This document shows positions 1-64,000 of a stretch of DNA of 64,000 bases, in pieces. Under the pieces are notes generated by a model. The model searched no databases, was not told the DNA's origin, and worked only from the letters and a program-made list of their open reading frames with translations. The DNA is from Streptomyces sp. DT2A-34 (GTDB lineage Bacteria; Actinomycetota; Actinomycetes; Streptomycetales; Streptomycetaceae): NCBI RefSeq assembly GCF_030499515.1, contig NZ_JASTWJ010000001.1, positions 558,001 through 622,000 on the forward strand. The letters run 5' to 3'. Each line of letters starts with the position of its first letter. The stretch's first letter is position 1. Both the position numbers and the translations under genes were made by a program.

Positions 1-1884
1 GGGCATGAGGGTGAGCGCGTCGCGGGCGTGGGCGTGGGCCCCGGCGAGGTCGCCCTCGCGCAGGGCGATGTCGCCGCGCACCCCGGCGTAGAGCGCCTGT
101 GCCACGGCGAGGTCCCTGGCCCGGGCGTCGTCGAGGAGTTTGTCGCACCAGGACCGGGCGAGGTCGAGGCGGCCGGCGTGCACGAGGGCGTGCAGCGCGG
201 GCAGTGCCGTCTGGGGCCCCCAGGACATGCCGTCGCTCGGCCGCGCGACCTGCAGCACGTGCTCGGCGTCGGTGACGGCGTGTTCGTCGGGCCCCTGGGT
301 GAGGACGGTCGTCAGCGCCGTCACGGCCCTGAGTGCCGGGCCGGTGGTGCGGCCGGCCGGTCCGCTGTCGCGGTCGGTCCCGGCGGGTGGCCGGGTGCGT
401 CGGGCGAGCGGCGGGTGGGTGCAGGCCAGCCACAGCTCGGTGGTCCGGTCGGCGGTGCCCGGCTGGTGCCGGGCGCGCCGCAGCCGTTCCATCGCCTCGG
501 CCGCCTCGTCGACGCGCCCGTGCCACAGCAGGGGCGGCACCAGGGAGCGCACATCGCGGTCGGACAGCCGCCCGGCGCGCATCGCGTCGGTGACGGTGGT
601 GAGCCGGCGGCCCGCGGCGGCGGGGTTGACCCGCGACTCCACGCGCACCAGCTTCGCCGCGATCGCCGCCTGCCGGTGTGCCTCGGGGCAGGCGCGGTGG
701 GCGCGTTCGAGGCAGCGCAGCGCCGTGTCGATCCGTTCCTCGCGCAGCGCGTGCTCGGCGGCCTCCTCGAACACCGGTACCGCCCAGCTCTCGTCGGCCC
801 TGTCGGCCCCGTCGGCACGCAGCAGGTAGGGCGCCACCTCGGTCGCGGGCGCTCCCTCGTCGTGCACCAGCAGAGCGGCGGTCCGGTGGGTCCGGCCGCG
901 TTCGTCGGCGGGCATGTCGTCGAGTACGGCGGTGCGGGCGGCGTCGGTGCGGAAGCGGCCGTCGGCCAGCAGCCCGGCATCGGTCAGGAGGTCGAGCGCC
1001 GAGCGCACCGCCTCGACATCGAGGCCGGCGAGGCGGCCCAGCCGCTCGACGGTGGCGTGGGCGCCGGTGACGGCGAGCGCGCGGGCGACCGCCACGACGT
1101 ACGGCTCGCAGCGGTGGACACAGCTGACGAGGGCCCGGCGGAACCCGGGGCCGGGCGCCGGCACGCCGTCCGCGTCCGGCCCGGCCGTCCGCCGGTCGGC
1201 GAGCAGGGACCGGGCCAGCAGCGGGTTCCCCCCGGTGAGCGCCATGGCCTCGCGGCCCGCGTCGGCGCCGCCGAACAGGTCGGCCATGCCCGCCTCCGAC
1301 AGGGGCGCCACGCCGATCTCATGGCAGTGCGGGTGCCGTGACAGCTCGGTGTGCAGCGGGGAGTGGGCGGCGCCGGGGCTCGCCGTGCGGGCGAGGAGCA
1401 GCAGGATGCCGGCCCGGCCGAGGCGGCGGACGAGCGACAGCAGCCAGTGCAGTGACTGCGGGTCCGCGTGCTGCACGTCGTCGACGCCGATCACCAGCGG
1501 GCTGTCCGCGGCGAGGTCGAGCAACGCCAGGCACAGCGTGTGCAGTTGGTGGGCGGTCGCGGGTCCCGCGGTCCGGGCCGCCGCGTCGAGCAGGTCCCTG
1601 ACCTGGGCAGGCGCGCCGAGCGCATGCAGGAGCTGGCCGGCCACGCCGAAGGGCAGGTCGCGTTCGAGGGCCGAGCAGGTCGCGGACACGAACCGTTCGC
1701 CGCAGCGCTCGCCGAACCGGTGCAGCAGCTCGGTCCTGCCGCAAGCCACCGGGCCCGTCACGAGGGCGACCCGGCCCGATCCGGCGACGGCGTCCGACAG
1801 CAGCGCGGTGAGGCCGGCCCACTGGGCGTCGCGTTCGATCAGTCCCGTGCACCCCGTCTCGGCGCGCCGGTCCGTGCCGGTCAT
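1..1884 (-). CDS. LuxR-family LAL-type transcriptional regulator, N-terminal 628 residues (3' end outside window)
   Basis: The minus-strand frame is open from the ATG at 1884-1882 to the window edge. It encodes an ATPase-type signal domain as in the large ATP-binding LuxR (LAL) regulators of macrolide and polyene clusters. A degenerate Walker A, GPVACGRT, lies at residues 44-51, with Arg in place of the usual Lys. A Walker B-like VIGVDDVQ lies at about 131-138. Helical TPR-like sequence follows, rich in Ala, Leu and Arg. The C-terminal LuxR helix-turn-helix would lie beyond position 1 and is not seen. The start was chosen because the frame reads straight into the conserved N-terminus. An upstream ATG at 1894 belongs to another frame with non-conserved, Arg-rich sequence. 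The gene is divergent from the glycosyltransferase, so a pathway-specific activator role is inferred, not shown. Confidence 0.85.
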   Translation of the reverse strand, partial: MTGTDRRAETGCTGLIERDAQWAGLTALLSDAVAGSGRVALVTGPVACGRTELLHRFGERCGERFVSATCSALERDLPFGVAGQLLHALGAPAQVRDLLDAAARTAGPATAHQLHTLCLALLDLAADSPLVIGVDDVQHADPQSLHWLLSLVRRLGRAGILLLLARTASPGAAHSPLHTELSRHPHCHEIGVAPLSEAGMADLFGGADAGREAMALTGGNPLLARSLLADRRTAGPDADGVPAPGPGFRRALVSCVHRCEPYVVAVARALAVTGAHATVERLGRLAGLDVEAVRSALDLLTDAGLLADGRFRTDAARTAVLDDMPADERGRTHRTAALLVHDEGAPATEVAPYLLRADGADRADESWAVPVFEEAAEHALREERIDTALRCLERAHRACPEAHRQAAIAAKLVRVESRVNPAAAGRRLTTVTDAMRAGRLSDRDVRSLVPPLLWHGRVDEAAEAMERLRRARHQPGTADRTTELWLACTHPPLARRTRPPAGTDRDSGPAGRTTGPALRAVTALTTVLTQGPDEHAVTDAEHVLQVARPSDGMSWGPQTALPALHALVHAGRLDLARSWCDKLLDDARARDLAVAQALYAGVRGDIALREGDLAGAHAHARDALTLMP

Positions 1885-2164: not shown

Positions 2165-3547
2165 ATGAGTCAGCGGCCGATCTTGTTCGTCAGCCTGCCC
2201 GAGAGCGGTCTGTTGAACCCGATGTTGGTGCTCGCGGAGGAACTGTCCCGGCGTGGCGTGGCCGACCTGTGGTTCGCCACCGACGACAAGGCGCGCGAGG
2301 AGGTCGCGGCGACGGCGGTCGGCTCCCCCGTCGAGTTCTTCTCCCTGGGCGAGGTCGTCTCCGAGATGTCCTCGGTGACCTGGGACGACAGCACGTATGC
2401 GGCGGTGACGCAGCGGTCGCGGTTCAAGGCGCGGCGCGCCGTGATCGAGCAGACCGACCGGCCCGCGCTGCGGGTGCCCAAGTACCGGGCGCTGGAAGAG
2501 GCGGTGGAGAAGATCCGGCCGGCCCTGATGGTCGTGGAGAGCATGTGCCAGTTCGGCTGGGAGCTCGCCATCTCCAAGGGGATCCCGTTCGTGCTCAGCG
2601 ACCCGTTCGTGCCGTCGAACCTGCTGACCTCGGCCGTGCCGATCGGGCCCTCGCACACCCCCAAGGGCTTCCCGGTGCCGCACTCGGGCCTGCCCGCCGA
2701 CATGTCGTTCCCGCAGCGGTGGCAGAACAGGCTGTTCCAGTGGCGGACGCTGGCCATGGCGTTCGGGAAGTTCAACAAGGAGCGCAACGCGGTCGACGCG
2801 CGGGTGCGGGCGGAGCTGGGCATCGCCCCTGAGGCGTACGGCCAGTTCTGCCGCGTGGAGCGGTCCGAGCTGGTGCTGTGCTACTCGATCCCGGAGATGG
2901 ACTACGCCTTCGACCTCCCGGCGAAGCTGCGCACGGTCGGCGCGCTGGTGCCGCCGCTGCCGCAGTGCCCGCCCGGCGAGCTGTCCGCCTGGCTCGACGC
3001 GCAGGGGTCCGTGGTCTACATGGGCCTCGGCACGATCACCCGGCTCACGGCCGGGCAGGTGCGGGCGTTCGTGGAGGTGGCCCGGCGGCTGGAGGGCCGG
3101 CACGCGGTGCTGTGGAAGCTGCCGCGCGACCAACAGGCCCATCTGCCCGCGGACCTGCCGGGGAACCTGCGGGTCGAGACCTGGGTGCCGTCGCAGCTGG
3201 ACGTGCTGGCGCACCCGAACGTGAAGGTGTTCTTCACCCACGCGGGCGGCAACGCGTACACGGAGAGCATCCACTTCGGCAAGCCGATGGTGTCCCGTCC
3301 GCTGTGGGTCGACTGCTACGACCAGGCCGTGCGCGCCGAGAGCTTCGGCGTGGGGCTCACGCTGTCGAAGCCGCACACCGTCGACCCCGACGACGTGCTC
3401 GACAAGCTGACGCGCGTGCTCGACGACCCCGCGTTCACCGAGAACGCCCGGCGTCTGGCCGCGCTGCAACAGGCCGCCGGCGGCCGGACCGCCGCCGCCG
3501 ACCTGATCCTGGACCTGCCCGCGCTGTCTTCGGAAGTGAGTCGATGA
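2165..3547 (+). CDS. Mycosaminyltransferase-like macrolide glycosyltransferase (NysDI/AmphDI type)
   Basis: A 460-residue GT-B (family 1/MGT-like) glycosyltransferase. The N-terminus has the acceptor-domain pattern ILFVSLPESGLLNPML. The C-terminal nucleotide-sugar site is visible at about 358-390 as THAGGNAYTES followed by GKPMVSRPLWVDCYDQA. In the polyene family this enzyme attaches GDP-mycosamine to the hydroxyl at the end of the polyene, here predicted to be C21. The gene lies directly before the aminotransferase that would make mycosamine, and the stop overlaps the next start (ATGA at 3544-3547), so translation is probably coupled. The start at 2165 follows GAAGGG with seven-base spacing. 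The much longer upstream extension of this frame is not coding-like. Sugar identity is inferred from neighbours. Confidence 0.88.
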   Translation: MSQRPILFVSLPESGLLNPMLVLAEELSRRGVADLWFATDDKAREEVAATAVGSPVEFFSLGEVVSEMSSVTWDDSTYAAVTQRSRFKARRAVIEQTDRPALRVPKYRALEEAVEKIRPALMVVESMCQFGWELAISKGIPFVLSDPFVPSNLLTSAVPIGPSHTPKGFPVPHSGLPADMSFPQRWQNRLFQWRTLAMAFGKFNKERNAVDARVRAELGIAPEAYGQFCRVERSELVLCYSIPEMDYAFDLPAKLRTVGALVPPLPQCPPGELSAWLDAQGSVVYMGLGTITRLTAGQVRAFVEVARRLEGRHAVLWKLPRDQQAHLPADLPGNLRVETWVPSQLDVLAHPNVKVFFTHAGGNAYTESIHFGKPMVSRPLWVDCYDQAVRAESFGVGLTLSKPHTVDPDDVLDKLTRVLDDPAFTENARRLAALQQAAGGRTAAADLILDLPALSSEVSR

Positions 3548-4605
3548 GCTTCACGTATCCCGTGTCGATGCCGTCGCTGAAGGGCAATGAGCTCGACTAC
3601 GTCACCCAGGCCGTCACCAGCGGCTGGATCTCCTCGCAAGGGCCTTACGTGCCCCGGTTCGAGGAGGCGTTCGCCGCCTACAACGGGGTGGCCCACGGGG
3701 TGGCCTGCTCCTCGGGGACGACCGCGCTGACGCTCGCGCTGCGCGCCCTCGGGGTCGGTCCCGGCGACGAGGTGATCGTGCCGGAGTTCACGATGATCGC
3801 GTCGGCGTGGGCGGTCACCTACACGGGCGCGACACCGGTGTTCGTGGACTGCGCCGACGACCTCGACATCGACGTGACGAGGATCGAGGAGAAGATCACC
3901 CCGCGCACCAAGGTGATCATGCCGGTGCACATCTACGGCCGGCGCTGCGACATGGACGCGATCCTGGAGCTGGCGTACGAGTACAACCTGCGCGTGGTGG
4001 AGGACTCCGCGGAGGCGCACGGCATCGCGCCGACCGGCGATATAGCCGCGTTCTCCCTGTTCGCCAACAAGATCATCTCGGCGGGCGAGGGCGGCATCTG
4101 CCTGACCGACGACCCCCATCTGGCCCGCCAGATGGCGCATCTGCGCGGCATGGCGTTCACCCGGGACCACAGCTTCCTGCACAAGAAGCTCGCCTACAAC
4201 TTCCGCATGACCAACCTCCAGGCGGCCGTGGCGCTGGCCCAGACCGAGCGGCTGGACGAGATCCTGGCCACCCGGGCACGGATCGAGAAGCGCTACGACG
4301 AGGGACTGCGCGGCATCGACGGCATCACCCTGATGCCGGAGCGGGACGTGCTGTGGATGTACGACCTGCGCGCCGAACGCCGGGAGGCACTCCGGGAGTT
4401 CCTCGCCGGCCGGGGCATCGAGACCCGCCTGTTCTTCAAGCCCATGAGCCGGCAGCCCGGCTATCTGGACCCGGTCTGGCCGACGCTGAACGCGAACCGC
4501 TTCGCCGAGGACGGCCTGTATCTGCCGACGCACACCGAACTGACCGAGGAAGACCAGGAGTTCATCGTGGCGCAGGTCCGCGCGTTCTACGAGGTGTCGT
4601 CATGA
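3544..4605 (+). CDS. DegT/DnrJ/EryC1-family sugar aminotransferase (mycosamine synthase, NysDII/AmphDII type)
   Basis: A 353-residue PLP-dependent sugar aminotransferase of normal family length. The internal aldimine lysine is Lys176 in SLFANKIISAGEGG, and VVEDSAEAHG (Asp154) should hold the pyridine nitrogen. In polyene clusters this enzyme converts GDP-3-keto-6-deoxymannose to GDP-mycosamine, the donor for the preceding glycosyltransferase. It overlaps its neighbours at both ends: its ATG lies in the glycosyltransferase stop (3544-3547), and its stop contains the P450 ATG (4602-4605). The partner GDP-mannose 4,6-dehydratase is not in this window. Perosamine-synthase-type activity on another sugar cannot be excluded from sequence alone. 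Confidence 0.88.
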   Translation: MSFTYPVSMPSLKGNELDYVTQAVTSGWISSQGPYVPRFEEAFAAYNGVAHGVACSSGTTALTLALRALGVGPGDEVIVPEFTMIASAWAVTYTGATPVFVDCADDLDIDVTRIEEKITPRTKVIMPVHIYGRRCDMDAILELAYEYNLRVVEDSAEAHGIAPTGDIAAFSLFANKIISAGEGGICLTDDPHLARQMAHLRGMAFTRDHSFLHKKLAYNFRMTNLQAAVALAQTERLDEILATRARIEKRYDEGLRGIDGITLMPERDVLWMYDLRAERREALREFLAGRGIETRLFFKPMSRQPGYLDPVWPTLNANRFAEDGLYLPTHTELTEEDQEFIVAQVRAFYEVSS

Positions 4606-5810
4606 CCTCCTCCCCCACGGCCGGCGCCGAGGCCGACGCCGAGGACGAGGACGAGATCGTCCCGTTCGTGCTGCGCCGCCCCGGCGCCCCGTTCCCGCCC
4701 CCCGAGTACACGGAGTTCCGGCAGCGGCCCGGCCTGGTGAAGGCCGCGCTGCCCTCGGGCGACACGGTGTGGCTGGTGACCCGGCACGAGGAGGTGCGCC
4801 GGATCCTCACCGATCCGCGCATCAGCGCCAACCCCGCGCACCCGGGCTTTCCCAGGCCGTCGCGCACCGGGGGCGTGCCCACCGCCGACGAGGTGCCGGG
4901 CTGGTTCGTGGCGCTCGACCCGCCGGACCACACCAAGTTCCGCAAGGCGCTGATCCCCGAGTTCACGGTGCGCCGCATCCGCGCGCTGCGGCCGGTCGTC
5001 GAGGAGATCGTCGACCACACCATCGACCGGATGCTCGCCCGGGGCGACACCGCCGACCTCGTCGAGGACTTCGCGCTGTCGGTGCCGTCGCTGGTGATCT
5101 CGTCCCTGCTCGGTGTGCCCAAGGTGGACCGCGGCTTCTTCGAGGCCAAGACGAAGGTCCTCGTCACCATCAACTCGACCGACGAGGAACGCGACAACGC
5201 CTCCCAGCAACTGCTGCGCTACCTCAACCGGCTGATCGCGATCAAGACCAAGCGGCCCGGCGACGACCTGATCAGCAAGCTGGTCGAGGGCGGGCTGCTG
5301 TCCCCGCAGGAGCTCTCCGGCGTGGCCATGCTGCTGCTGATCGCCGGCCACGAGACGACGGCCAACAACATCGCCCTCGGCGCGGTCACCCTGCTGAACG
5401 ACCCTCGGTGGATCGGCGACGAGCGCACGATCGAGGAACTGCTGCGCTTCCACTCGGTCGCCGACCTGGTGGCGCTGCGCGTGGTGGTGGAGGACATCGA
5501 GATCGGCGGCCGGCTGCTGCGGGCCGGCGAGGGCGTCGTACCGCTGGTGGCCGGCGCCAACCACGACCCCGCGGCCTTCGACCGCCCGCATGTGTTCGAC
5601 CCGTCCCGGTCCGCGCACGGGCATGTGGCGTTCGGCTACGGCGTCCACCAGTGCCTGGGGCAGAACCTGGTGCGTCTGGAGCTGGAGGTCGCCTACCAGA
5701 AGCTGTTCGCCCGCATCCCGACCCTGCAGATCGCGGTTCCGCCGGAGGAACTGCCGTTCAAGTACGACGGGGTGCTCTTCGGACTCCACGCACTGCCGGT
5801 GCGGTGGTAG
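4602..5810 (+). CDS. Cytochrome P450, CYP105H-like (NysN/AmphN type), exocyclic methyl to carboxyl oxidation
   Basis: A 402-residue soluble bacterial P450. The I-helix oxygen-activation motif is AGHETT (248-253), ExxR is EELLR near 279-282, and the heme loop is FGYGVHQCLGQN with ligand Cys351. The N-terminus is unusually acidic (Ala/Asp/Glu stretch at 7-18). In nystatin and amphotericin, the P450 between the aminotransferase and the ferredoxin oxidises the methyl branch to a carboxyl in three steps. Here the single methylmalonyl-loading module (M3 of PKS-A) supplies such a methyl, predicted at C18. The ferredoxin 33 bp downstream is the likely electron donor. The start overlaps the aminotransferase stop. 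The substrate is inferred from synteny. Confidence 0.87.
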   Translation: MTSSPTAGAEADAEDEDEIVPFVLRRPGAPFPPPEYTEFRQRPGLVKAALPSGDTVWLVTRHEEVRRILTDPRISANPAHPGFPRPSRTGGVPTADEVPGWFVALDPPDHTKFRKALIPEFTVRRIRALRPVVEEIVDHTIDRMLARGDTADLVEDFALSVPSLVISSLLGVPKVDRGFFEAKTKVLVTINSTDEERDNASQQLLRYLNRLIAIKTKRPGDDLISKLVEGGLLSPQELSGVAMLLLIAGHETTANNIALGAVTLLNDPRWIGDERTIEELLRFHSVADLVALRVVVEDIEIGGRLLRAGEGVVPLVAGANHDPAAFDRPHVFDPSRSAHGHVAFGYGVHQCLGQNLVRLELEVAYQKLFARIPTLQIAVPPEELPFKYDGVLFGLHALPVRW

Positions 5811-5843: not shown

Positions 5844-6038
5844 ATGACGCGCATCAGTGTGGACACCGACAAGTGCATCGGGGCGGCGCAGTGTGTGCTG
5901 ACCGCGCCCGAGGTGTTCGACCAGGACGACGACGGCTTCGTGGAACTCCTGCAGGAGGAACCGGAGGGGCCGGAGGAGCGTTCTGCGCGGATGGCCAGGT
6001 CGGTCTGTCCGGCTCAGGCGATCACCGTGCACGAGTGA
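5844..6038 (+). CDS. Small [3Fe-4S] ferredoxin, P450 redox partner (NysM type)
   Basis: A 64-residue ferredoxin with three cluster cysteines, Cys11, Cys17 (CIGAAQC) and Cys55 (SVCPAQAI). Position 14, where a [4Fe-4S] protein would have the extra Cys, is Ala, so a [3Fe-4S] cluster is expected. It delivers electrons to P450s; the adjacent upstream P450 is the obvious partner and the two other P450s in the window could also use it. No ferredoxin reductase is present, so a housekeeping one must serve. A strong GGAGGA at 5832-5837 supports the ATG at 5844. It is the last gene of the rightward operon, followed by a terminator. Confidence 0.9.
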   Translation: MTRISVDTDKCIGAAQCVLTAPEVFDQDDDGFVELLQEEPEGPEERSARMARSVCPAQAITVHE

Positions 6039-6107: not shown

Positions 6108-7292
6108 TCACCAGGTGACGGGGAACCTCGCCAGACCGCCGGCCAGCCGGCCGCCGGGGTGGGACTCCAGTTCGGCCTCCGGCACCGCGAGGCGCAGCGA
6201 GGGCAGGCGGGAGAACAGCGCGGTGTAGGCGACGGCCAGGATGATGCGCACCAGCGGCGCGCCCGTGCAGTGCCGCATGCCGTGCCCGAACGTGAAGTGC
6301 GGGTTGGGCGTGCGGGTGACGTCGAAGCGGGACGGCTCCTCGAAGGCGCGGGCGTCGTGGTTGGCCAGCGAGAAGTCGAGCATCACCAGGTCGCCCTCGG
6401 CGATGGTGACCCCGCCGATCTCGATGTCCTCGCTCGCGTACCGGGGCAGCACGGGGCTTCCGATCGTGGCCCGCATGACCTCGTCGACCGCCCGGACCAT
6501 GACGTTCGGGTCGGCCATGGCGAGGGCGAGCTGGTCGGGGTTGCGCAGGAACAGCAGCACCCCGAAGTCGAGGTGGGAGGCGAGCCCGGACAGGCCGGTG
6601 AACAGCAGCGTGACCGTGTGCAGTCCGATCTCCTCGTCGGTGAGACCGGAGTCGATGAAGCGGGAGATCACGTCGTCGCCGGGTTCGTCACGGCGTTTGG
6701 CGCCGAGCTCGGCGGCGTAGCCGAACAGGGCGTCCATGCCGGACTCGGCGTGCTGCCGGTCGGTGTCGCCGACGGTGTCCATCATGGCCAGCAGCCGCCG
6801 GCGGTCCTCGGCGGGGACGCCGACCATGTCGCACAGCGCCTGCTGGGAGTACTCCATCGAGTAGGACTCGTGCAGGTCCGCGGTCGGTCCGGCGGCGATG
6901 ATCCCGTCGAGCGTGGCGTGCGCGATCGCCTCGACGCGGGAGCGGCGGTCGAGGACCTTCCGGGCGGCGAAGCTCTTGGTGTACAGGACACGCTTGTTCT
7001 CGTGGGCGCGCCGCTCGGTCTCCACGTCGTCGCTGGTGACGAGCATGTCCAGCATCGGGTTGCGGAAGAACCGGGGCGCGTTCTGCGGATCCTTGTGCGA
7101 GCGGCCGAGGCGGTGGTCCTGCAGCAGCGCCTTGACCTCGGCGTGGCGGGTCACCAGCCACCCCTCGTCGCCGGCGGGCGTGAGGATGCGGCACACGGGG
7201 GCCTGTTCCTGCAGACGCAGGCGGATGTCGCTGAAGGCGAGGATCGAGGGCTGTTCGACCCCGATCAGGGGCAGTTGCTGTGAGAGAGGCAT
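6108..7292 (-). CDS. Cytochrome P450, CYP161-like (NysL/AmphL/PimD type), late macrolide-ring oxidase
   Basis: A 394-residue P450 with ExxR at EVMR (271-274) and heme loop FGHGMRHCTGAP with ligand Cys342. The I-helix reads FTGLSGLASH (231-240) and lacks the usual acid-Thr pair. It lies directly after the thioesterase-bearing PKS gene, the position of nysL and amphL, whose products hydroxylate a polyol CH2 (C10 in nystatin, C8 in amphotericin). PimD, the same family, epoxidises an olefin. No module in this window makes an olefin in the C1-C21 part, so hydroxylation, probably at C8 next to the C7 methylene, is the better inference. A GGAAGG precedes the ATG at 7292. The gene is likely co-transcribed with PKS-B and PKS-C. 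Confidence 0.85.
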   Translation of the reverse strand: MPLSQQLPLIGVEQPSILAFSDIRLRLQEQAPVCRILTPAGDEGWLVTRHAEVKALLQDHRLGRSHKDPQNAPRFFRNPMLDMLVTSDDVETERRAHENKRVLYTKSFAARKVLDRRSRVEAIAHATLDGIIAAGPTADLHESYSMEYSQQALCDMVGVPAEDRRRLLAMMDTVGDTDRQHAESGMDALFGYAAELGAKRRDEPGDDVISRFIDSGLTDEEIGLHTVTLLFTGLSGLASHLDFGVLLFLRNPDQLALAMADPNVMVRAVDEVMRATIGSPVLPRYASEDIEIGGVTIAEGDLVMLDFSLANHDARAFEEPSRFDVTRTPNPHFTFGHGMRHCTGAPLVRIILAVAYTALFSRLPSLRLAVPEAELESHPGGRLAGGLARFPVTW

Positions 7293-7301
7293 GGGATCCT
7301 T

Positions 7302-7344
7302 CCCGCTGGTGGGGGTGGCTGGGGCCCGCTGGTGGGGGGTGGCT
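7302..7344. repeat. Short tandem duplication in the PKS-C/P450 junction
   Basis: A 19-bp unit starting CCCGCTGGTGGGGG and ending TGGCT (7302-7320) recurs as a 20-bp copy with one extra G at 7325-7344, start-to-start 23 bp. The second copy overlaps the PKS-C stop codon. It probably arose by local duplication; no function is apparent. Confidence 0.7.
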
Positions 7345-8060
7345 AGGGCCGGTCGGTGGCCAGGGTGGTGAGCCAGTCCTCGATCACGCCGGCGGTCAGG
7401 GCGGCGTCCTCCTTGACCATGGCCATGTGGTCGGTGGGCACGATGCGGATCTCGTCCGCGGGTACGGACACCTCCTGGCCGGTGGTCGTGAACTCCGTGC
7501 CGTCCACTTCCCGGCCGCACCGCACGAGCATCTTCGGCACGGTGGGGTGCAGGCCGGTGTCGGTGATGCGGACGAACCAGTGGGCCATCGCCGACAGGCG
7601 CGCACTGTTCAGGTTCACCGCGGGCGAGTCCATGGTGGTGAAGTAGTTGGTGGTGACCGAGTCGAAGTCGAGGCCCTCGTTGGTGTCGTAGTTGAGGCTC
7701 AGCGTGTCGAGCATGATCACGGCTTCGGGGGCGATGCCCCAGGTCTCCTCCAGCACAGCCGCGGCGAGGTAGGCCAGGGTGCCGCCGGAGGAGTGCCCGA
7801 CCAGGCAGAACGGTTCACCGTCGCCGGCGTGCAGCACGCTCTCGGCGACCCAGCGCACGGCGGCCGCGGTGTCCTTGGGCAGCGGCTCGCCCGGCTCGAA
7901 CCCGATCAGCGGCAGCGCCGACACCTGCCGTTTGCCGCGCAGGTGCGCCGCGAGGCGGGCGTACATGTGGACGCCGGCGGTCGCGCCGGGCGCGCTGATG
8001 CAGATCAGCTTGGGCAGCGCCGGGCCGTGGGCGAGGGTCACCGCCGTGGGCAGGTCCTCC
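7343..8060 (-). other. Thioesterase domain of PKS-C
   Basis: Alpha/beta-hydrolase thioesterase. The nucleophile motif GHSSGG is coded at 7781-7798 and the C-terminal catalytic His lies in PTDHMAM. It releases the finished chain as a macrolactone. Confidence 0.88.
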
Positions 8061-11000
8061 AGTTCGGCCGGCGTCTCGAACATCGGGCGCAGGTTCGCCA
8101 CGGCCTTGAGCAGGCTCAGGCCCTGCAGCACCTTGCCGGTCGACACCGACTCCATGAACAGCCCGAACACGGTGTCGGACGGGTCGACGGCGGCGCCGGT
8201 ACCGGCGGAGGCCTCGGCCGGGCCCTGGAGCGTGCCGAGGTCGGCGAGCAGGGTCCGGGCGAGGTTCGCCGGGGTCTTGTTGTCGAAGACGATGGAGCCC
8301 GCCAGCTTGCGGCCGCCCAGCAGTTCGCCCAGCTGGTTGCGGAGTTCGACGGCGATGAGCGAGTCGAAGCCCAGCTCCAGGAAGTCCTTCTCCGGGTCGA
8401 CGGCGCTCGGGTCGGGGTGGCCGAGCAGCGCCGCCGAGGTGCCCACGACGAGGTCGCGCAGCATGGTCTCGCGGGCCTCGGGGCCGGCGCCGCGCAGCCG
8501 GTCCAGGACGGTGACGGCGGCCTTCTCGGCGGGCACCGCGGTGGGCGCGTCGGTGAGGAGGCCGCGCAGCAGCGGGGCGACGGGGCCGTGGGCCCGCCGG
8601 CCGGCCGGGTTGACGTACATCGGCACGAGCAGTGCCTCGTCGCGGGCGAGCGCCGCGTCGAACAGGGCGAGGCCCTGCTCCGCCGCGAGGGGCGGCATCC
8701 CGGAGCGCGCGATGCGTTCCATGGCGGCCTCGCTCAGCCCGCTCGTCATGCCGCTGTCCTGCGCCCAGGGACCCCACGCCAGCGAGACGGCGGGCAGCCC
8801 CTCGGCCCGGCGACGGACGGCGAGGGCGTCCAGGTAGGCGTTGGCGGCGGCGTAGTTGCCCTGCCCGGCGGCGCCCATGACGTTCGCGACCGACGAGTAC
8901 AGCGCGAACACCGCGAGGTCCAGGTCCCGGGTGGCCCGGTGCAGATGCCAGGCACCGTCGGCCTTGGGGCGCAGCACCGCGTCGAGGCGTGCGGGGGTGA
9001 GGGTGTCGACGAGGCCGTCGTCCAGCACGCCGGCGGTGTGTGCGACACCGGTCAGCGGGTGGGCGGCGGGCACGGCGGCGAGCAGTTCCGCGACGGCCTC
9101 CTCGGTGGAGACGTCGGCGGCGACGACGGTGACCGAGGCGCCCCGCGCCTCGAGTTCGGCGCGCAGTTCGCCCGCGCCGGGCGCGTCGGGGCCGCGGCGG
9201 CCGGCGAGCAGCAGGTGCCGTACGCCGTGGCGGGCGACGAGGTGGCGGGCGAGTGCGGCGCCCAGGCCGCCGGTGCCGCCGGTGATCAGGACCGTGCCCT
9301 CGGGGTTCCAGGCGGGGGCGGACGGCGCGGTGGCGGGCAGTTCGGCGAGGCGGGCGACCTTGACGACGCCGTCGCGGACCAGCACCTGGGGCTCGTCCCA
9401 CGACACCAGCCGTACGACCGTGGCGATCGACACGTCCGACGCGTCGAGGTCGACCAGGGTGAACCGGCCGGGGTGCTCCGCCTGTGCGGTGCGCACCAGG
9501 CCCCACGCCGCGGCGGCGGCCAGGTCCTCGCCGGTTGCCGCGCCCCGGCTGACGAACACCACGCGGGCGCTCTCGTACCGCAGGCTCTCCTGAAGCACCG
9601 TCAGGACCCGGGTCGTCGTGTCCCGCACGCTGTCGGGCGTCTCGGCACCCGACACCGACACGACGAACACGTCCGGCGCGGCGGCCTGGCCCGCGGCGTC
9701 GGCCAGGGTCTCGCCGTAGCCGGTGACGGTCTGGCCCGCGCTGTAGAGGACGTGGGCCACGTCGAACTCGTCGGTGCCGACCACGGCCCAGCGGGCGGTG
9801 GCCACGGGCACGCCGTCAAGCGGGGCGGTGACCCAGTCGACCTCGTGGAGCGCGGGGCGGTGGGCCTGCTGCGGTCCGGCGTACGGGCCGCCCGGCGCCA
9901 TGGTGGACTGCGGCCAGAACCGGTGCCGGTCGAACGGGTAGGTGGGCAGGTCGATCCGGCGGCCACCGGCGTAGAACGACGACCAGTCGACCTTCGCGCC
10001 GGCCGTGTGGAGCCGGGCGAGCGCGGTGACGAGGGCGGTGTCCTCGGGCCGGTCCCGGCGCAGCAGGGGCACACAGCCGTCGACGAGGGCGGAGAGCACG
10101 CCGACCGGGCCGACCTCGACGAAGGTGGCGTCGCCGATCGCGGCGACGTGGTCGGCGAACCGCACCGCGTCCCGCACGTGCCGCACCCAGTACTCGGGCG
10201 AGGTGACGTCGCCGGTCGTGGCGATGGGCAGGCGCGGCGTGTGAAAGGCGAGGTCCTTGATGGAGTGGCGGAACTCGTCGAGCATCGGCTCCATCAGCGG
10301 CGAGTGGAAGGCGTGGCTGACGCGCAGCCGCTTGTGCTCCCAGCGTTCGGCGATCCGCAGGACCTCGCTCTCGTCGCCGGCGATCACCACGGAGTCGGGG
10401 CCGTTGACGGCGGCGACGGAGACGTGCGCGGTGAGGTGCGGGAGAACGTCCGCCTCGGTGGCCGTCACGGACACCATGGCGCCGCCTGCGGGCAGGGCCT
10501 GCATCAGGCGGGCTCGGGCGGTGACCAGCGTGGCCGCGTCCCGCAGCGTGAGGACTCCGGCGACATGTGCGGCGGCGATCTCGCCGATCGAGTGCCCGGC
10601 GAGGTGGTCGGGCTTGATGCCGTAGGACTCCAGCAGGCGGTAGAGGGCGACTTCGAGGGCGAAGAGTGCGGGCTGGGTGTTGCCGGTGCGGTTCAGGGCC
10701 GCCTCGTCGTCGCCCCAGATCACGTCGCGCAGCCCGGGGTCCAGGAGCGCGAGCACCTCGTCGAGGGCGGTGCGGAACACCGGGAAGCGGTCGTACAACT
10801 CGCGCCCCATGCCCAGGCGTTGGGCGCCCTGGCCGGAGAACAGCACGGCGAGCGGGCGGCGGGTGACCGTGCCCCGGGCGAGCACGTCGCCGTCGAGGAG
10901 TACGGCTCGGTGCTCGAAGGAGGTGGAGCGGGTGGTCAGCAGGGAGTACCCGATATCGACAGCGCCGACGGGGTCGCCGGAAAGCTGTTGTGCCTGCTCC

Positions 11001-12511
11001 ACACGGGAGTTCAGGGCGGTGTCGGACTTGGCGGAGACCAGCCACGGGACCGAGGAGGGGACCGCAGAGGCGGCCGGGCGCTCACCGGCCGCGGGCGCTT
11101 CCTCAGCCGGCCCCACCTCAGCCGATGCCTCCTCAGCCGATGCCTCCTCGACCGGCGCCTCCTGGATGATCACGTGCGCGTTGGTGCCGCTGACGCCGAA
11201 CGACGACACACCGGCCCGGCGCGGCTTCTCCGTGGGCGGCCACGGCACGGCGGAGGTGAGCAGTTCGACGTTCCCGGCCGTCCAGTCGACGTGCGAGGTC
11301 GGCTCGGTGACATGCAGGGTGGGCGGCAGTTCGGCGTGGCGCAGCGCCATCACCGTCTTGATCACCCCGGCGACGCCGGCGGCGGCCTGGGTGTGACCGA
11401 TGTTCGACTTGATCGCGCCCAGCCGCAGCGGCGTCTCACGACCCTGTCCGTAGGCGGCGATCAGCGCCTGTGCCTCGATGGGGTCGCCGAGTGTCGTGCC
11501 GGTGCCGTGCGCCTCGACGGCGTCCACGTCGGACGGGGTGAGGCCGCCGGAGGCGAGCGCGGCGCGGATCACCTCGCGCTGGGCGGGGCCGTTGGGCGCG
11601 GACAGCCCGTTGGAGGCGCCGTCCTGGTTGATGGCGCTGCCCGCGAGCACGGCGAGCACGGGGTGGCCGTTGCGGCGGGCGTCGGACAGCTTCTCGACGA
11701 GCAGCACGCCGATGCCCTCGGACCAGCCGGTGCCGTCGGCGTCGTCGGAGAACGCCTTGCAGCGGCCGTCGGCCGCCAGGCCGCCCTGGCGGGTGAACCC
11801 GGCGAAGTTCGACGCCGTCGTCATGACGGTGACGCCGCCCGCGAGGGCGAGGGAGCACTCGCCGCCCCGCAGCGCCTGCGCCGCCAGGTGCAGGGCGACC
11901 AGCGAGGAGGAACAGGCGGTGTCGAGGGTGAGCGAGGGGCCTTCCAGGCCGAGCGTGTAGGAGACCCGGCCGGAGATCACGCTGGCCGCCGTACCCATGC
12001 CGGCGTGGCCCTCGACGTCCTCCTGCGAGGCGATCAGCACATGGCCGTAATCCTGGCCGTTGGTGCCGACGAACACGCCGGTCCGGCTGCCGCGCAGCGT
12101 CACCGGGTCGATCCCGGCGCGTTCGATCGCCTCCCACGAGGTCTGCAGCAGCAGCCGCTGCTGCGGGTCCATGGCCAGCGCCTCACGCGGGGAGATGCCG
12201 AAGAAGCCGGGGTCGAACTCGGCCGCGTCGTACAGGAATCCGCCCTGCAGGGTGGCGCTGTCGCCGCCGGCGAGCGTGCCCAGGTCCCAGCCCCGGTCGG
12301 TGGGGAAGCCGGAGACGGCGTCCCGGCCCGAGGACACCAGGTCCCACAGGTCCTCGGGCGAGCGGACGTCGCCGGGGAACCGGCAGGCGATGCCGACGAT
12401 CGCCACCGGTTCGTGCCGGGCGTTCTCCGCCTTCTCCAGCCGCTGCCGGGTCTGGTGCAGGTCGGCGGTGACCCACTTCAGGTACTCCACGAGCTTCTCG
12501 TCGTTCGGCAT
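7343..12511 (-). CDS. Type I modular PKS-C: final module plus thioesterase (KS-AT-KR-ACP-TE)
   Basis: A 1722-residue terminal polyketide synthase, the NysK/AmphK/FscF counterpart. An N-terminal docking helix (residues 1-32) leads into KS (from about 33, active-site TACSSS). The AT is malonyl-specific (GHSIGE and HAFH). An active KR with the B-type LDD motif follows (from about 1075), then ACP (near 1381, GFDSL) and a thioesterase from about 1494 with nucleophile Ser1574 in GHSSGG. It adds C1-C2, leaves a hydroxyl at C3 and closes the macrolactone. The active KR distinguishes it from candicidin-type enzymes that keep a C3 ketone. It starts 18 bp after PKS-B with AGGAAGG before the ATG, so the two are one transcript. 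Confidence 0.93.
8270..12415 (-). other. PKS module M11 (KS-AT-KR-ACP), malonyl; predicts C3-OH
   Basis: Malonyl-type AT (GHSIGE, HAFH), complete KR with GGTGGLG and LDD, no DH or ER. The ACP serine lies in ELGFDSL near 8365. Confidence 0.85.
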
Positions 12512-60071: not shown

Positions 60072-61280
60072 TCACCAGGTCACGGGCAGCTCCCGCAGGC
60101 TGTAGACGATGGCGCCGTCACGGAAGCGCAGTTCCTGCGCGGGCTTGGCGAGCTTCAGCGTCGGAATGCGAGTGATCAGTGTGAGGACGGCCACCTGGAG
60201 TTCCACGCGCGAGAGGAACTTCGCGATGCAGCTGTGGATTCCGTGCCCGAAGGCCAGCGGGGTGCTGTCCTTGCGGGTGATGTCGAGCCGGTCGGCGTCG
60301 GCGTAGACGCTCTCGTCGCGGTCGGCCGAGGAGAGCAGGGCGATGACGCCCTCGCCCGCCCTGATCACCTGCCCGGCGATCTCCACGTCCTCCTTGGCGA
60401 CCCGGCCCACGCCGCACTGCATGACGTTCTGGTGGCGCAGCAGTTCCTCCACGGCGCCGACCACCAGGTCGGGGTTCTCGCGCAGTTTCACCAGCTGGTC
60501 GGGGTGTTCGAGCAGTGCGAGCACGCTGAGCGCGATGGAGCTGGCGGTGGTGTCATAGCCTGCCGACAGCAGCATCATGCCGATGACGACGACCTCTTCG
60601 CGTCGGATCTCACCGGTCTTGAGCTGGTTCTCCACCAGGAGCCCGAGCACGTCGTCGCTGGGCTCGCGCTCCTTCTGCATCACGAGCTTGGTGAGGTAGC
60701 CGAAGAGGGCGCCGGCGGCGGCGTTGCGGTGCGCCTGGCTGGAGGTGGTCTCGACGAGGGTGCCGATCCAGCGTCCGAAGGCCATCCGGTCCTTGTAGGG
60801 GACGCCGAGCAGTTCGCACACGACGGTGAGCGGAATGGGCCGGGCGAAGGCGGACACCAGGTCGGCGGGCTGCGGTCCGGCGAGCAGCGCGTCGATGCGT
60901 TCGTCCACGAGCTTCTGCACCGCGGGCCGGATGCTCTCGGCCTTCTTCTTGGTGAACATGCTCATGATCATTCGCCGGTAGCGGGTGTGCTCCGGCGGGT
61001 CGACGGTGACGAACGCACCCGGCTGCGGGTCGACCGGGAAGAGGTAGCGGGGGTAGCCGGGGTTCATCACCTCGGCGCTGAACCGCGGGTCGGCCAGCAG
61101 CGCGCGCACGTCGGAGTAGCGGCTGACCAGCCAGGCGGTGTCGCCGGCGGGGGTCTCGACCCTGCGGACCGGGTCGTCCTCGCGCAGGCGGCCGTACTCG
61201 GGGGGCAGGTCCAGCGGGTGGTGCGGGTCGCGCGGGGACGGGAACGGGCACGCCGCCGGCACGGAAGACTGGTCGTTCAT
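60072..61280 (-). CDS. Cytochrome P450 (CYP105-like), function in pathway unassigned
   Basis: A 402-residue P450 with a normal I-helix AGYDTT (240-245), ExxR at EELLR (279-282) and ligand Cys351. The heme loop reads FGHGIHSCIAKFLSRVE, in which the usual CLGQNLAR-type sequence is replaced. Its ATG overlaps the CCR stop (61277-61280), so the two are translationally coupled and probably act in one step or on one structural feature. Nystatin and amphotericin carry no P450 here. Filipin clusters pair P450s with a CCR-like gene, so hydroxylation of an alkyl branch or of the chain end is one possibility, which is inference only. Electrons may come from the ferredoxin at 5844. Confidence 0.85.
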   Translation of the reverse strand: MNDQSSVPAACPFPSPRDPHHPLDLPPEYGRLREDDPVRRVETPAGDTAWLVSRYSDVRALLADPRFSAEVMNPGYPRYLFPVDPQPGAFVTVDPPEHTRYRRMIMSMFTKKKAESIRPAVQKLVDERIDALLAGPQPADLVSAFARPIPLTVVCELLGVPYKDRMAFGRWIGTLVETTSSQAHRNAAAGALFGYLTKLVMQKEREPSDDVLGLLVENQLKTGEIRREEVVVIGMMLLSAGYDTTASSIALSVLALLEHPDQLVKLRENPDLVVGAVEELLRHQNVMQCGVGRVAKEDVEIAGQVIRAGEGVIALLSSADRDESVYADADRLDITRKDSTPLAFGHGIHSCIAKFLSRVELQVAVLTLITRIPTLKLAKPAQELRFRDGAIVYSLRELPVTW

Positions 61281-62632
61281 CGCAGCGGGGCTCCATCCTC
61301 CGAGCGGCGGGCGTCGGAGATCCGGAACCGGTTGATGGCGTCCAGATGGCGGTCGCGCAGCGCGTGGTCGCGCACGCCGAGCCCCTCCGAGGGCGCCAGG
61401 CACAGCACGCCGACCTTGCCCTGGTGGGTGTTGCGGTGCACGTCGTACGCGGCCTGCCCGGTCTCCTCCAGGGGGTACACCGTGGACAGCGTCGGGTGGA
61501 TCCGCCCCTGGGCGACCAGCCGGTTCGCCTCCCATGCCTCGCGGTAGGTGGCGAAGTGGGTGCCGATGACGCGCTTGAGGTGCATCCACAGATAGCGGTT
61601 GTCGTACTGGTGGAGAAAGCCGCTGGTGGAGGCGCAGGTGACGATGGTGCCGCCGCGTCTGGCGACGTACACGCTGGCGCCGAAGGTCTCCCGGCCGGGG
61701 TGCTCGAACACGATGTCCGGGTCCTGGCCGCCGGTCAGTTCGCGGATCCGCGCGCCGAACCGCTTCCACTCCCTGGGATCCTGGGTGTGCTCGTCGCTCC
61801 AGAACCGGTATCCCTCGGCGGACCGGTCGATGATCAGCTCGGCGCCGGCCCTGCGGACGACCTCCGCCTTCTGCGGCGAGGAGACCACGCACACCGGCGT
61901 CGCGCCGCCGTTGAGGGCGAGCTGGGTGGCGTAGGAGCCGAGCCCGCCGGAGGCGCCCCAGATCAGGACCGTGTCGCCCTGCTTCATGTTCGCGCCGTTG
62001 GCGGAGACGAGCTGCCGGTACGCGGTGGAGTTGACCAGGCCCGGCGCCGCCGCCTCCTCCCAGGTGAGGTGCTCCGGCTTGGGCATCAGCTGGTTGGCCT
62101 TGACCAGGGCGAGCTCGGCGAGGCCGCCGTAGTTGGTCTCGAAGCCCCAGATGCGCTGCTGCGGGTCGAGCATGGTGTCGCCGTGGCCGTCCGGGTGCTC
62201 CAGTTCGACGTCCAGGCAGTGCGCCACGACGCGGTCGCCGGGCTGCCATGCGGTGACGCCCGTGCCGACGCGGAGCACGACGCCGGCGAGGTCGGAGCCG
62301 AGCACATGGTGGGGCAGGTCGTGCTTGCCGCCGAGCCGCTTGAGGAAGGTGAAGGTGGGCAGCGGCTCGAAGATCGAGGACCACACCGTGTTGTAGTTGA
62401 CGGACGACGCCATCACCGCGATCAGCGCCTCGCCCGGCCCCACCTCGGGGGTCCGCACCTCTTCGAGGCGCAGCGACCGGCGCGGGTCCTTCTCCCGGGT
62501 CCGCAGTCCCTCGAACATGCCCACGTCCTCGCGGCGGACCACGACCCCCCGGTAGCTGTCGGGCACCGGCAGGGCTTCAAAATCCCGGGGCCCCGCGTCA
62601 TCCGACTCGATGGCACTCAGGATCTCACTCAT
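61277..62632 (-). CDS. ccr: Crotonyl-CoA carboxylase/reductase (ethylmalonyl- or alkylmalonyl-CoA / butyryl-CoA supply)
   Basis: A 451-residue medium-chain dehydrogenase-type enzyme of normal CCR length. It carries the NADPH motif WGASGGLGSYATQ (225-237), WGFETNYGG (162-170), EHPGRETFGAS (310-320) and THFATYREAW (358-367). Residues matching the CO2-binding set of the Kitasatospora CCR (Asn81, Phe, Glu, His) appear as Asn81, Phe164, Glu165 and His359, so it should be a reductive carboxylase and not a plain reductase. It converts crotonyl-CoA (or a longer enoyl-CoA) plus CO2 and NADPH to ethylmalonyl-CoA or a homologue. The start at 62632 was chosen over 62671 because MSEIL matches the family N-terminus and GAGGAG lies seven bases upstream. 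No AT in this window looks ethylmalonyl-specific. Confidence 0.92.
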   Translation of the reverse strand: MSEILSAIESDDAGPRDFEALPVPDSYRGVVVRREDVGMFEGLRTREKDPRRSLRLEEVRTPEVGPGEALIAVMASSVNYNTVWSSIFEPLPTFTFLKRLGGKHDLPHHVLGSDLAGVVLRVGTGVTAWQPGDRVVAHCLDVELEHPDGHGDTMLDPQQRIWGFETNYGGLAELALVKANQLMPKPEHLTWEEAAAPGLVNSTAYRQLVSANGANMKQGDTVLIWGASGGLGSYATQLALNGGATPVCVVSSPQKAEVVRRAGAELIIDRSAEGYRFWSDEHTQDPREWKRFGARIRELTGGQDPDIVFEHPGRETFGASVYVARRGGTIVTCASTSGFLHQYDNRYLWMHLKRVIGTHFATYREAWEANRLVAQGRIHPTLSTVYPLEETGQAAYDVHRNTHQGKVGVLCLAPSEGLGVRDHALRDRHLDAINRFRISDARRSEDGAPLR

Positions 62633-62639
62633 CCGGGCA

Positions 62640-62645
62640 CTCCTC
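62640..62645 (-). promoter_or_regulatory. Ribosome binding site fixing the CCR start
   Basis: GAGGAG on the minus strand with a 7-base spacer to the ATG at 62632. The alternative ATG at 62671 would place this site inside the coding region. Confidence 0.75.
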
Positions 62646-62687
62646 ACAACGGCCTCAGGGTCTGACACCACCGTAGGAGCGGGAACA

Positions 62688-62799: not shown

Positions 62800-64000
62800 G
62801 TGCTGATCGGATTCCTGAAAACCCATCTGCGGCCCTACCGCCGAGGGCTTGTGGCCCTGCTGGTGCTGCAACTGATCCAGACCGTGGCCACCCTGCTGCT
62901 GCCCACCCTGAACGCCGCCGTCATCGACCACGGCATCCTCACCGGCGACGTGGAGTACATCTTCACCATCGGCGCGGTGATGCTGGCCGTCGCCGTGGTG
63001 CAGATCGTCACCGCCGCCGGCGCCGTCGTGTTCGCCGCCCGGTGCGCGGCCGGCCTCGGACGCGATCTGCGCCGCCGGGTCTTCCGGGCCGTGCTCGGCC
63101 TGTCGGCGCGCGAGGTGGGCGAGATCGGCACGCCCTCGCTCCTCACCCGCACCGTGAACGACGTCCACCAGGTGCAGACCATCGTCCTGACGACGGCGGA
63201 CGTGGCGGTGTCGGCGGTCATCATGTGCCTGGGCGGAGTCGTGCTGGCCGTCCTCCAGGACGTCGCGGTGTCCGTGGTCGTCGTCGCGCTCGTGGTGGCC
63301 GTGATCGCGAGCCTGACGGTGGTGCTGGGCCGGCTGAGCCCGTTCTACGCGCGCATGCAGAAGTCCATGGACCGCATCAACCACCTGCTGCGCGAGCGGA
63401 TCAGCGGGGTGCGGGTGATCCGCGCGTTCGTCCGCGACGACCATGAGCGTGCCCGCTTCGACCGCGCGAACGACGAGCTGTTCGAGGTGTCGCTGCGGGT
63501 GGGGCGGATCATCGCGGCCATGCCGGTCGTGGTGATGATCGTGATGAACGTCCTGACCGTGGTGATCATCTGGGTCTCCGGGCGGCGGATCGACGCCGGC
63601 GACATGCAGCTGGGCGCCCTCACCGCGCTGCTCAGCTACGTCACGCTGATCATCGTCTCGATCATCATGGCGGTGATGGTGTTCACCGAGGGCTCGCGGG
63701 CCGCCGTCTCGGCCGGGCGCATCCAGGAGGTGCTGGACGCCCGCACCAGCGTGCCGGCGCCCGAGCGTCCGGTGCGGGAGCTTCCCGCCCCCGGCCACCT
63801 CGAACTGCGGGGCGCCGCCTTCGGCTACCCCGGTGCGGAGAAGCCCGTCCTGCGCGACGTCGACCTCGTCGTCCGGCCCGGTCAGAAGGTCGCGATCCTC
63901 GGCAGCATCGGCAGCGGCAAGTCGACCCTCCTGAACCTGGTGCTGCGGCTGTACGACGTCACCGCCGGCCACATCCGGGTGCACGGCGTCGACGTACGCG
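62800..64000 (+). CDS. ABC exporter, fused membrane and ATPase domains (NysG/NysH-like), partial at 3' end
   Basis: The first 400 residues of a type-IV (ABCB-like) exporter half-transporter. A membrane domain has about six hydrophobic segments (e.g. LVALLVLQLIQTVATLLL near residue 18, ASLTVVLG near 165, VVVMIVMNVLTVVIIWV near 240). The ATPase domain begins at about 330 with Walker A GSIGSGKST. The window ends before the Q-loop and signature motif. Start is GTG at 62800 with AAGGGGAG at 62786-62793 and a six-base spacer; no in-frame ATG lies nearby. Polyene clusters carry two such genes side by side, making a heterodimer that exports the polyene; the partner probably follows outside the window. 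The role as exporter is inferred from context. Confidence 0.88.
   Translation, partial: MLIGFLKTHLRPYRRGLVALLVLQLIQTVATLLLPTLNAAVIDHGILTGDVEYIFTIGAVMLAVAVVQIVTAAGAVVFAARCAAGLGRDLRRRVFRAVLGLSAREVGEIGTPSLLTRTVNDVHQVQTIVLTTADVAVSAVIMCLGGVVLAVLQDVAVSVVVVALVVAVIASLTVVLGRLSPFYARMQKSMDRINHLLRERISGVRVIRAFVRDDHERARFDRANDELFEVSLRVGRIIAAMPVVVMIVMNVLTVVIIWVSGRRIDAGDMQLGALTALLSYVTLIIVSIIMAVMVFTEGSRAAVSAGRIQEVLDARTSVPAPERPVRELPAPGHLELRGAAFGYPGAEKPVLRDVDLVVRPGQKVAILGSIGSGKSTLLNLVLRLYDVTAGHIRVHGVDVR

Follow-up and report, generated by a model that had tools for sequence, protein, structure and literature searches.

We analysed a 64 000-nucleotide stretch of the genome of Streptomyces sp. DT2A-34 (hereafter the window; contig NZ_JASTWJ010000001.1, positions 558001–622000), in which a gene for a crotonyl-coenzyme A (CoA) carboxylase/reductase (CCR; 61277–62632, minus strand) is coupled to a cytochrome P450 gene (60072–61280, minus strand) beside the genes of a polyketide synthase (PKS). 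The reading in which we place good confidence is that the CCR makes ethylmalonyl-CoA for modules 5 and 7 of its own assembly line, that the product is a heptaene with an aromatic starter and two ethyl branches, and that the P450 acts after the PKS. What stood as a puzzle at the edge of the window becomes a full prediction with its supply genes named. The CCR/P450 feature itself is real, conserved and ordinary in kind. From genes, domains, motifs, clades and conservation we predict the substrates, the sequence in which the PKS proteins act and the final compound.

The CCR gene and the modules predicted to use its product

The CCR frame is open from 61277 to 62671 on the minus strand. Its likeliest start is the ATG at 62632, which gives a protein of 451 amino acids: a GAGGAG motif ends seven bases before this codon and the codon model used for gene calling likewise picks it. 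The protein passes the curated cut-off of TIGR01751 (601.5 bits, cut-off 378.55). Among solved structures, five chains labelled crotonyl-CoA reductase or carboxylase/reductase match it best, at 772–796 bits; the octenoyl-CoA one gives 498 bits. The initial annotation credited the enzyme with a full set of CO2-binding residues, and we agree: N, F, E and H, which we take to be the CO2-pocket set of the K. setae enzyme (numbered with an assumed offset of two), are kept in 45 of the 45 aligned CCR rows, counting the window CCR and the reference.

We read the contig from 438001 to 682000 around the window (the genome has 10.3 Mb in two contigs) and numbered the genes of the cluster g34–g61. Six PKS proteins provide 24 extension modules (1+6+6+6+4+1), whose acyltransferases (ATs) carry the motif HAFH (20), YASH (2) or VASH (2). 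PKS-A (contig 546233–554104) comprises a CoA ligase, a ketoreductase (KR)-like domain, a carrier domain and module 1. PKS-B (contig 518255–546181, from 39.7 to 11.8 kb before the window begins) holds modules 2–7 with the motifs HAFH, HAFH, YASH, VASH, HAFH and VASH, and PKS-C (contig 488419–518229) holds modules 8–13. The other three proteins are encoded on the minus strand of the window: PKS-D (32854–59901; modules 14–19, HAFH except for YASH in module 16), PKS-E (12530–32728; modules 20–23, all HAFH, with an enoylreductase in module 22) and PKS-F (7343–12511; module 24, HAFH, and a thioesterase domain). Gene order and polyene precedent suggest that they act in the order A-B-C-D-E-F.

The 11 ATs of the window are those of modules 14–24, and they are ten malonyl-type (HAFH) and one methylmalonyl-type (YASH, module 16), exactly as first annotated. 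The annotation went on to propose that the CCR product is used by a module outside the window. This is most likely right, as both VASH ATs (modules 5 and 7) belong to PKS-B, to the left of it. A C2 side chain as in filipin and thailandin was rejected because the AT of the last module (24) is HAFH, not of the alkylmalonyl type.

The ATs of modules 5 and 7 are most likely of the ethylmalonyl type, as judged from motif and phylogeny. In a tree of 47 ATs, which included all 24 of the source genome and part of those from five relatives, the 10 VASH rows (eight from these clusters and the solved structures 6iyt and 7vt1) form one clade with support 100/100. The AT of module 5 is closest to the PDB chains 6iyt, 7vt1 and 7vrs (341–347 bits), followed by the YASH chains 7s6b and 6iyr (298–300 bits). 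We take 6iyt to be the salinomycin ethylmalonyl AT and 7vt1 to be an ethylmalonyl AT. VASH is given as the motif of ethylmalonyl ATs in PMC10646177.

Conservation of the system in related clusters

The P450 used as a query led to ten relative loci: seven in Lentzea and one each in S. pacificus, S. nanshensis and Streptomyces sp. HNM0575. The order CCR, P450, PKS-D is kept in 10 of 10, with a pair of ATP-binding cassette (ABC) transporter genes and a GDP-mannose dehydratase gene alongside. In every one of the seven Lentzea a pair of VASH ATs of these two kinds recurs; five have them within a single long open frame and two on broken contigs. Where PKS-B could be read through, in L. nigeriaca, L. 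xinjiangensis, L. waywayandensis and L. flava, its modules are malonyl, malonyl, methylmalonyl, VASH, malonyl and VASH. L. flava has two extra VASH ATs on another contig, which also carries a relative of the 3-hydroxybutyryl-CoA dehydrogenase (HBD) described below (G400 C8 124747–126213) and is a candidate for another ethylmalonyl cluster.

Extender supply and starter unit

Two further genes may contribute to the extender. A FabH-like ketoacyl synthase III (KASIII, g38; contig 483050–484000) lies at the far end of the cluster, and g41 (contig 486634–488328) encodes a protein of 564 residues with an HBD as its second half. With the CCR, they form a plausible route from acetyl-CoA to ethylmalonyl-CoA. 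No crotonase was noticed in the cluster; no search for one was made. In L. nigeriaca, too, the KASIII and HBD genes sit together on the far side of PKS-C, and in S. pacificus they share a contig. A close HBD is present in 10 of the 11 genomes (relatives and source), and seven of these have it on a contig that also bears other genes of the cluster.

The starter is predicted to be an aromatic acid, most likely 3-hydroxybenzoate. The loading protein PKS-A opens with an AMP-binding CoA-ligase domain (PF00501) and has no loading AT. The adjoining gene (contig 554419–555396) encodes a chorismatase of the FkbO/Hyg5 family (TIGR04444, 432 bits with a cut-off of 325), present in 11 of the 11 genomes. 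Together, loader and chorismatase indicate that the starter is not butyryl and point to 3-hydroxybenzoate. The chorismatase is 74–76% identical to Lentzea genes; its Lentzea counterpart is named Hyg5 in two species (PMC8944477), and this identity favours the same starter. Typing the remaining AT and loading domains, a check proposed with the initial annotation, gave two VASH ATs among 24 modules and a non-butyryl loader of the CoA-ligase kind.

Two observations concern the loading region. The KR-like domain between the CoA ligase and the carrier domain reads HAAAN where the other KRs read YAAAN, and may be inactive. Next to the chorismatase, a flavin (FAD) hydroxylase of the hydroxyphenylpropionate type (contig 555484–557115) is conserved in L. 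nigeriaca (79%) and in the genome G465 (63%); it may hydroxylate the aromatic starter.

Proposed pathway

We propose that acetyl-CoA would be converted through acetoacetyl-CoA and 3-hydroxybutyryl-CoA into crotonyl-CoA by the KASIII g38 and the HBD g41, with a crotonase assumed from elsewhere, and that the CCR would convert crotonyl-CoA into ethylmalonyl-CoA for the VASH modules 5 and 7 of PKS-B. The line would be primed by 3-hydroxybenzoate, made by the chorismatase and loaded by the CoA-ligase domain. Module 1 would leave an aryl carbinol, modules 2–4 a triene with one methyl, and modules 5–7 carbinols, with ethyl branches from 5 and 7. The dehydratase motif HxxxGxxxxP is present in modules 9–14 and reads A for P in module 8; the heptaene would follow if the module 8 dehydratase works. 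The polyol part would come after the heptaene, and the methyl of module 16 would become the carboxyl. We expect an aromatic heptaene glycosylated with mycosamine (or perosamine), in which both ethyl branches lie to the starter side of the heptaene part and one of the two adjoins it.

Some observations weigh against this pathway. An AT motif alone does not fix specificity (PMC12843615), and divergolide AT4, of the isobutyrylmalonyl type, likewise carries VASH (PMC6490886). The contigs of the three Streptomyces relatives end in module 5, after the ketosynthase that follows the YASH module, which makes modules 5–7 unreadable there. L. xinjiangensis is the only one of the 11 genomes with no close HBD. 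Finally, four genomes (G465, G493, G596 and G631) have no CCR match at E 1e-100 anywhere in the genome, and each has the chorismatase and one VASH AT. Hence, a CCR is not strictly needed for such an AT to be kept. In G493 and G631, the P450 and the PKS are on different contigs and presumably belong together. G465, G493 and G596 have no match to the GDP-mannose dehydratase or the aminotransferase within the stretches read, and resemble the flavatericin type. In G613, two VASH ATs are present and the chorismatase has no match at E 1e-60; this genome encodes a CCR elsewhere, but none beside the P450. It fits the published description of Amycolatopsis albispora, and we infer that it is this organism. 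Relatives with and without a CCR offer a natural comparison of how the supply of an extender keeps pace with, or trails, the specificity of the ATs.

The coupled P450 and alternative readings

The initial annotation took the coupling of CCR and P450 as a sign that the CCR-derived branch is oxidised. The coupling is real, as the CCR stop and the P450 start overlap as ATGA, and the thailandin cluster also has a CCR gene next to a P450 gene (thaC-thaOII, PMC6273641). A tree of 42 rows (36 different sequences) separates this P450 (PF00067) from those at 4602–5810 and 6108–7292, making it the third of the cluster. We searched for it in 394 genomes of the host's family (E 1e-110) and in 249 genomes of the Lentzea family (E 1e-120). 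Matches were found in 10 of the former, own genome included, eight of them distant (48–58% identity), and in 11 of the latter, five of them new (59–67% identity). The resulting P450 clade represents 16 distinct clusters (19 rows with 3 repeats), and at least one VASH AT is present in all 13 whose VASH region is readable, as would suit a branch-oxidising enzyme. However, these clusters have a common ancestry, which makes co-occurrence weak evidence, and a search with the module 5 AT (E 1e-95) found no AT in two genomes that have P450 relatives at 58% identity. Furthermore, the CCR adjoins the P450 in only 11 of the 16 clusters. The five newly found in the Lentzea family have the P450 and no CCR beside it, and in four of these it adjoins a P450 of the type of g52, the second of the cluster. 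As the same clade occurs without an adjoining CCR, the P450 is independent of this pairing, and we rejected the idea that it is always tied to a CCR. This weakens the coupling as a sign of function. We regard oxidation of the ethyl branch by this P450 as unlikely, if still the strongest of the alternatives, and its predicted role is that of a post-PKS oxidase.

Instead of ethylmalonyl-CoA, the CCR might provide modules 5 and 7 with propyl-, allyl- or isobutyrylmalonyl-CoA. The VASH motif of the divergolide AT would allow this, and the enzyme has a peculiarity that might go with another substrate: a six-residue deletion is common to 9 of the 11 cluster CCRs and absent from the remaining 36 aligned rows (reference included), the two cluster copies that do not have it being those of S. 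nanshensis and HNM0575. However, the CCR is nearer to crotonyl-type than to octenoyl-type enzymes, and the cluster has its own HBD and KASIII. We find this alternative improbable. Slightly less probable still is the combination of the two, in which the deletion-bearing CCR clade would make a non-ethyl branch and the coupled P450 would oxidise it, so that the aromatic heptaene would bear functionalised branches next to its lactone corner.

The option, also raised by the initial annotation, that the CCR supplies butyryl-CoA as a starter has a precedent in rimocidin, a polyene that carries mycosamine and a butyryl starter and whose cluster also encodes a CCR (PMC4540446), but was rejected on the CoA-ligase loader, which has no loading AT, and on the adjoining chorismatase found in all 11 genomes, and we give it hardly any weight.

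A threshold of E 1e-150 yields four CCR genes in the source genome. One of them (approx. 1386202–1387551) is followed by genes for a methylmalonyl-CoA mutase family protein, a CitE-like lyase and a MaoC-type hydratase, an order that we take to be that of the primary ethylmalonyl-CoA pathway. We built a tree of 44 CCR rows from 29 of 30 loci (drawn from the 49 matches listed, best first; the window's own copy was the locus omitted from this set) and the copies of the source genome and of the relatives; the own primary CCR was entered twice, which makes one duplicate row. The 11 cluster CCRs form one clade (support 99/92). Those that adjoin a mutase gene form a separate clade (100/97; 28 rows, 27 distinct), and the window CCR is outside it. 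We therefore place the window CCR in a cluster-specific clade distinct from the sampled primary-metabolism enzymes, as suits the cluster role that the initial annotation gave it. Its approximately 74% identity to the primary-type CCR of the same genome might suggest a misplaced copy of the primary enzyme, but this tree rejects that reading, which is scarcely credible in a genome that has the CCR-mutase gene pair elsewhere.

The two other CCRs of the genome have different surroundings. One is paired with a 3-hydroxybutyryl-CoA dehydrogenase (8988903–9000000) upstream of a PKS that starts with an AMP-binding (CoA-ligase) domain, and this locus probably belongs to a further cluster that uses ethylmalonyl and loads its starter through a ligase. 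The other (2031765–2033105) adjoins nonribosomal peptide synthetase genes, with condensation and AMP-binding domains in its neighbour.

Other genes of the cluster

The left edge of the window holds the start of a large ATPase-type gene (1–1884, minus strand; PF13191, AAA_16), which continues to the left and may encode a regulator. It is followed on the plus strand by a macrolide-type glycosyltransferase (2165–3547; macrolide glycosyltransferase families below cut-offs, 82% in L. nigeriaca), a sugar aminotransferase of the mycosamine or perosamine type (3544–4605; aminotransferase families below cut-offs, 90% identical in L. nigeriaca), the P450 g50 (4602–5810; P450 families, own clade) and an adjoining ferredoxin (5844–6038; PF13370, 53.2 bits). 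Gene order suggests that g50 is probably the P450 that forms the exocyclic carboxyl. The second P450, g52 (6108–7292, minus strand; PF00067), has an 80% identical copy in L. nigeriaca. At the right edge lies an ABC transporter gene (62800–64000, plus strand; PF00664 and PF00005), the first of a pair that continues rightward. Right of the window, this pair is followed by a GDP-mannose 4,6-dehydratase-like gene and an alpha/beta-hydrolase (thioesterase-like) gene.

Comparison with known systems

The initial annotation expected an unusual carbon skeleton. This is fair when compared with nystatin and amphotericin, but less so more broadly: CCRs are known in the rimocidin and thailandin clusters and ethylmalonyl modules have been predicted for the heptaene of A. 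albispora. Rimocidin/CE-108 is a mycosamine polyene whose cluster CCR, RimJ, is tied to an ethylmalonyl module; it differs in being a tetraene, in using ethylmalonyl at elongation step 13 (the last), and in its butyryl or acetyl starter (PMC4540446). Disruption of rimJ yielded the parental compounds plus others in which methyl replaces ethyl at step 13 (PMC4540446), and in kirromycin the loss of the CCR KirN lowered production (PMC5818483). Thailandin likewise has a CCR gene followed directly by a P450 gene, but its sugar is rhamnose rather than mycosamine and its last module is alkylmalonyl, giving a C2 side chain, where the last AT here is HAFH (PMC6273641).

Among aromatic heptaenes, candicidin likewise ends in a tetramodular protein and a monomodular one with a thioesterase. 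Candicidin and partricin differ in having 21 modules, a p-aminobenzoate starter and methylmalonyl branches (PMC8944477), and the section of that article on them does not mention a CCR. Among the open-access papers searched, supplements aside, we found none that describes an aromatic heptaene cluster with a CCR.

The cluster resembles the flavatericin-type clusters for 3-hydroxybenzoate-primed heptaenes in Lentzea and Saccharopolyspora; for Lentzea, a chorismatase, a CoA-ligase loader, 24 modules and amino-sugar genes have been described (PMC8944477). L. waywayandensis and L. xinjiangensis from that study are among our ten relatives. Its main text names neither a CCR nor an ethylmalonyl module for the Lentzea clusters, whereas we predict both; 'crotonyl' and 'CCR' are absent from it, and 'ethylmalonyl' appears two times, once in a general statement and once on A. 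albispora. In the heptaene of the latter, primed by 3-amino-5-hydroxybenzoate (AHBA), ethylmalonyl is predicted in two alternate modules, 6 and 8; it differs in its starter and, according to that article, in the absence of extender genes from the cluster (PMC8944477). Our results bear on this published gap, as ethylmalonyl modules had been predicted for a related heptaene with no supply genes in its cluster (PMC8944477). On the sequence evidence, the cluster of Streptomyces sp. DT2A-34 is an additional member of the predicted 3-hydroxybenzoate-primed heptaene group of that study, one for which the CCR and its companion genes would now explain the extender supply.

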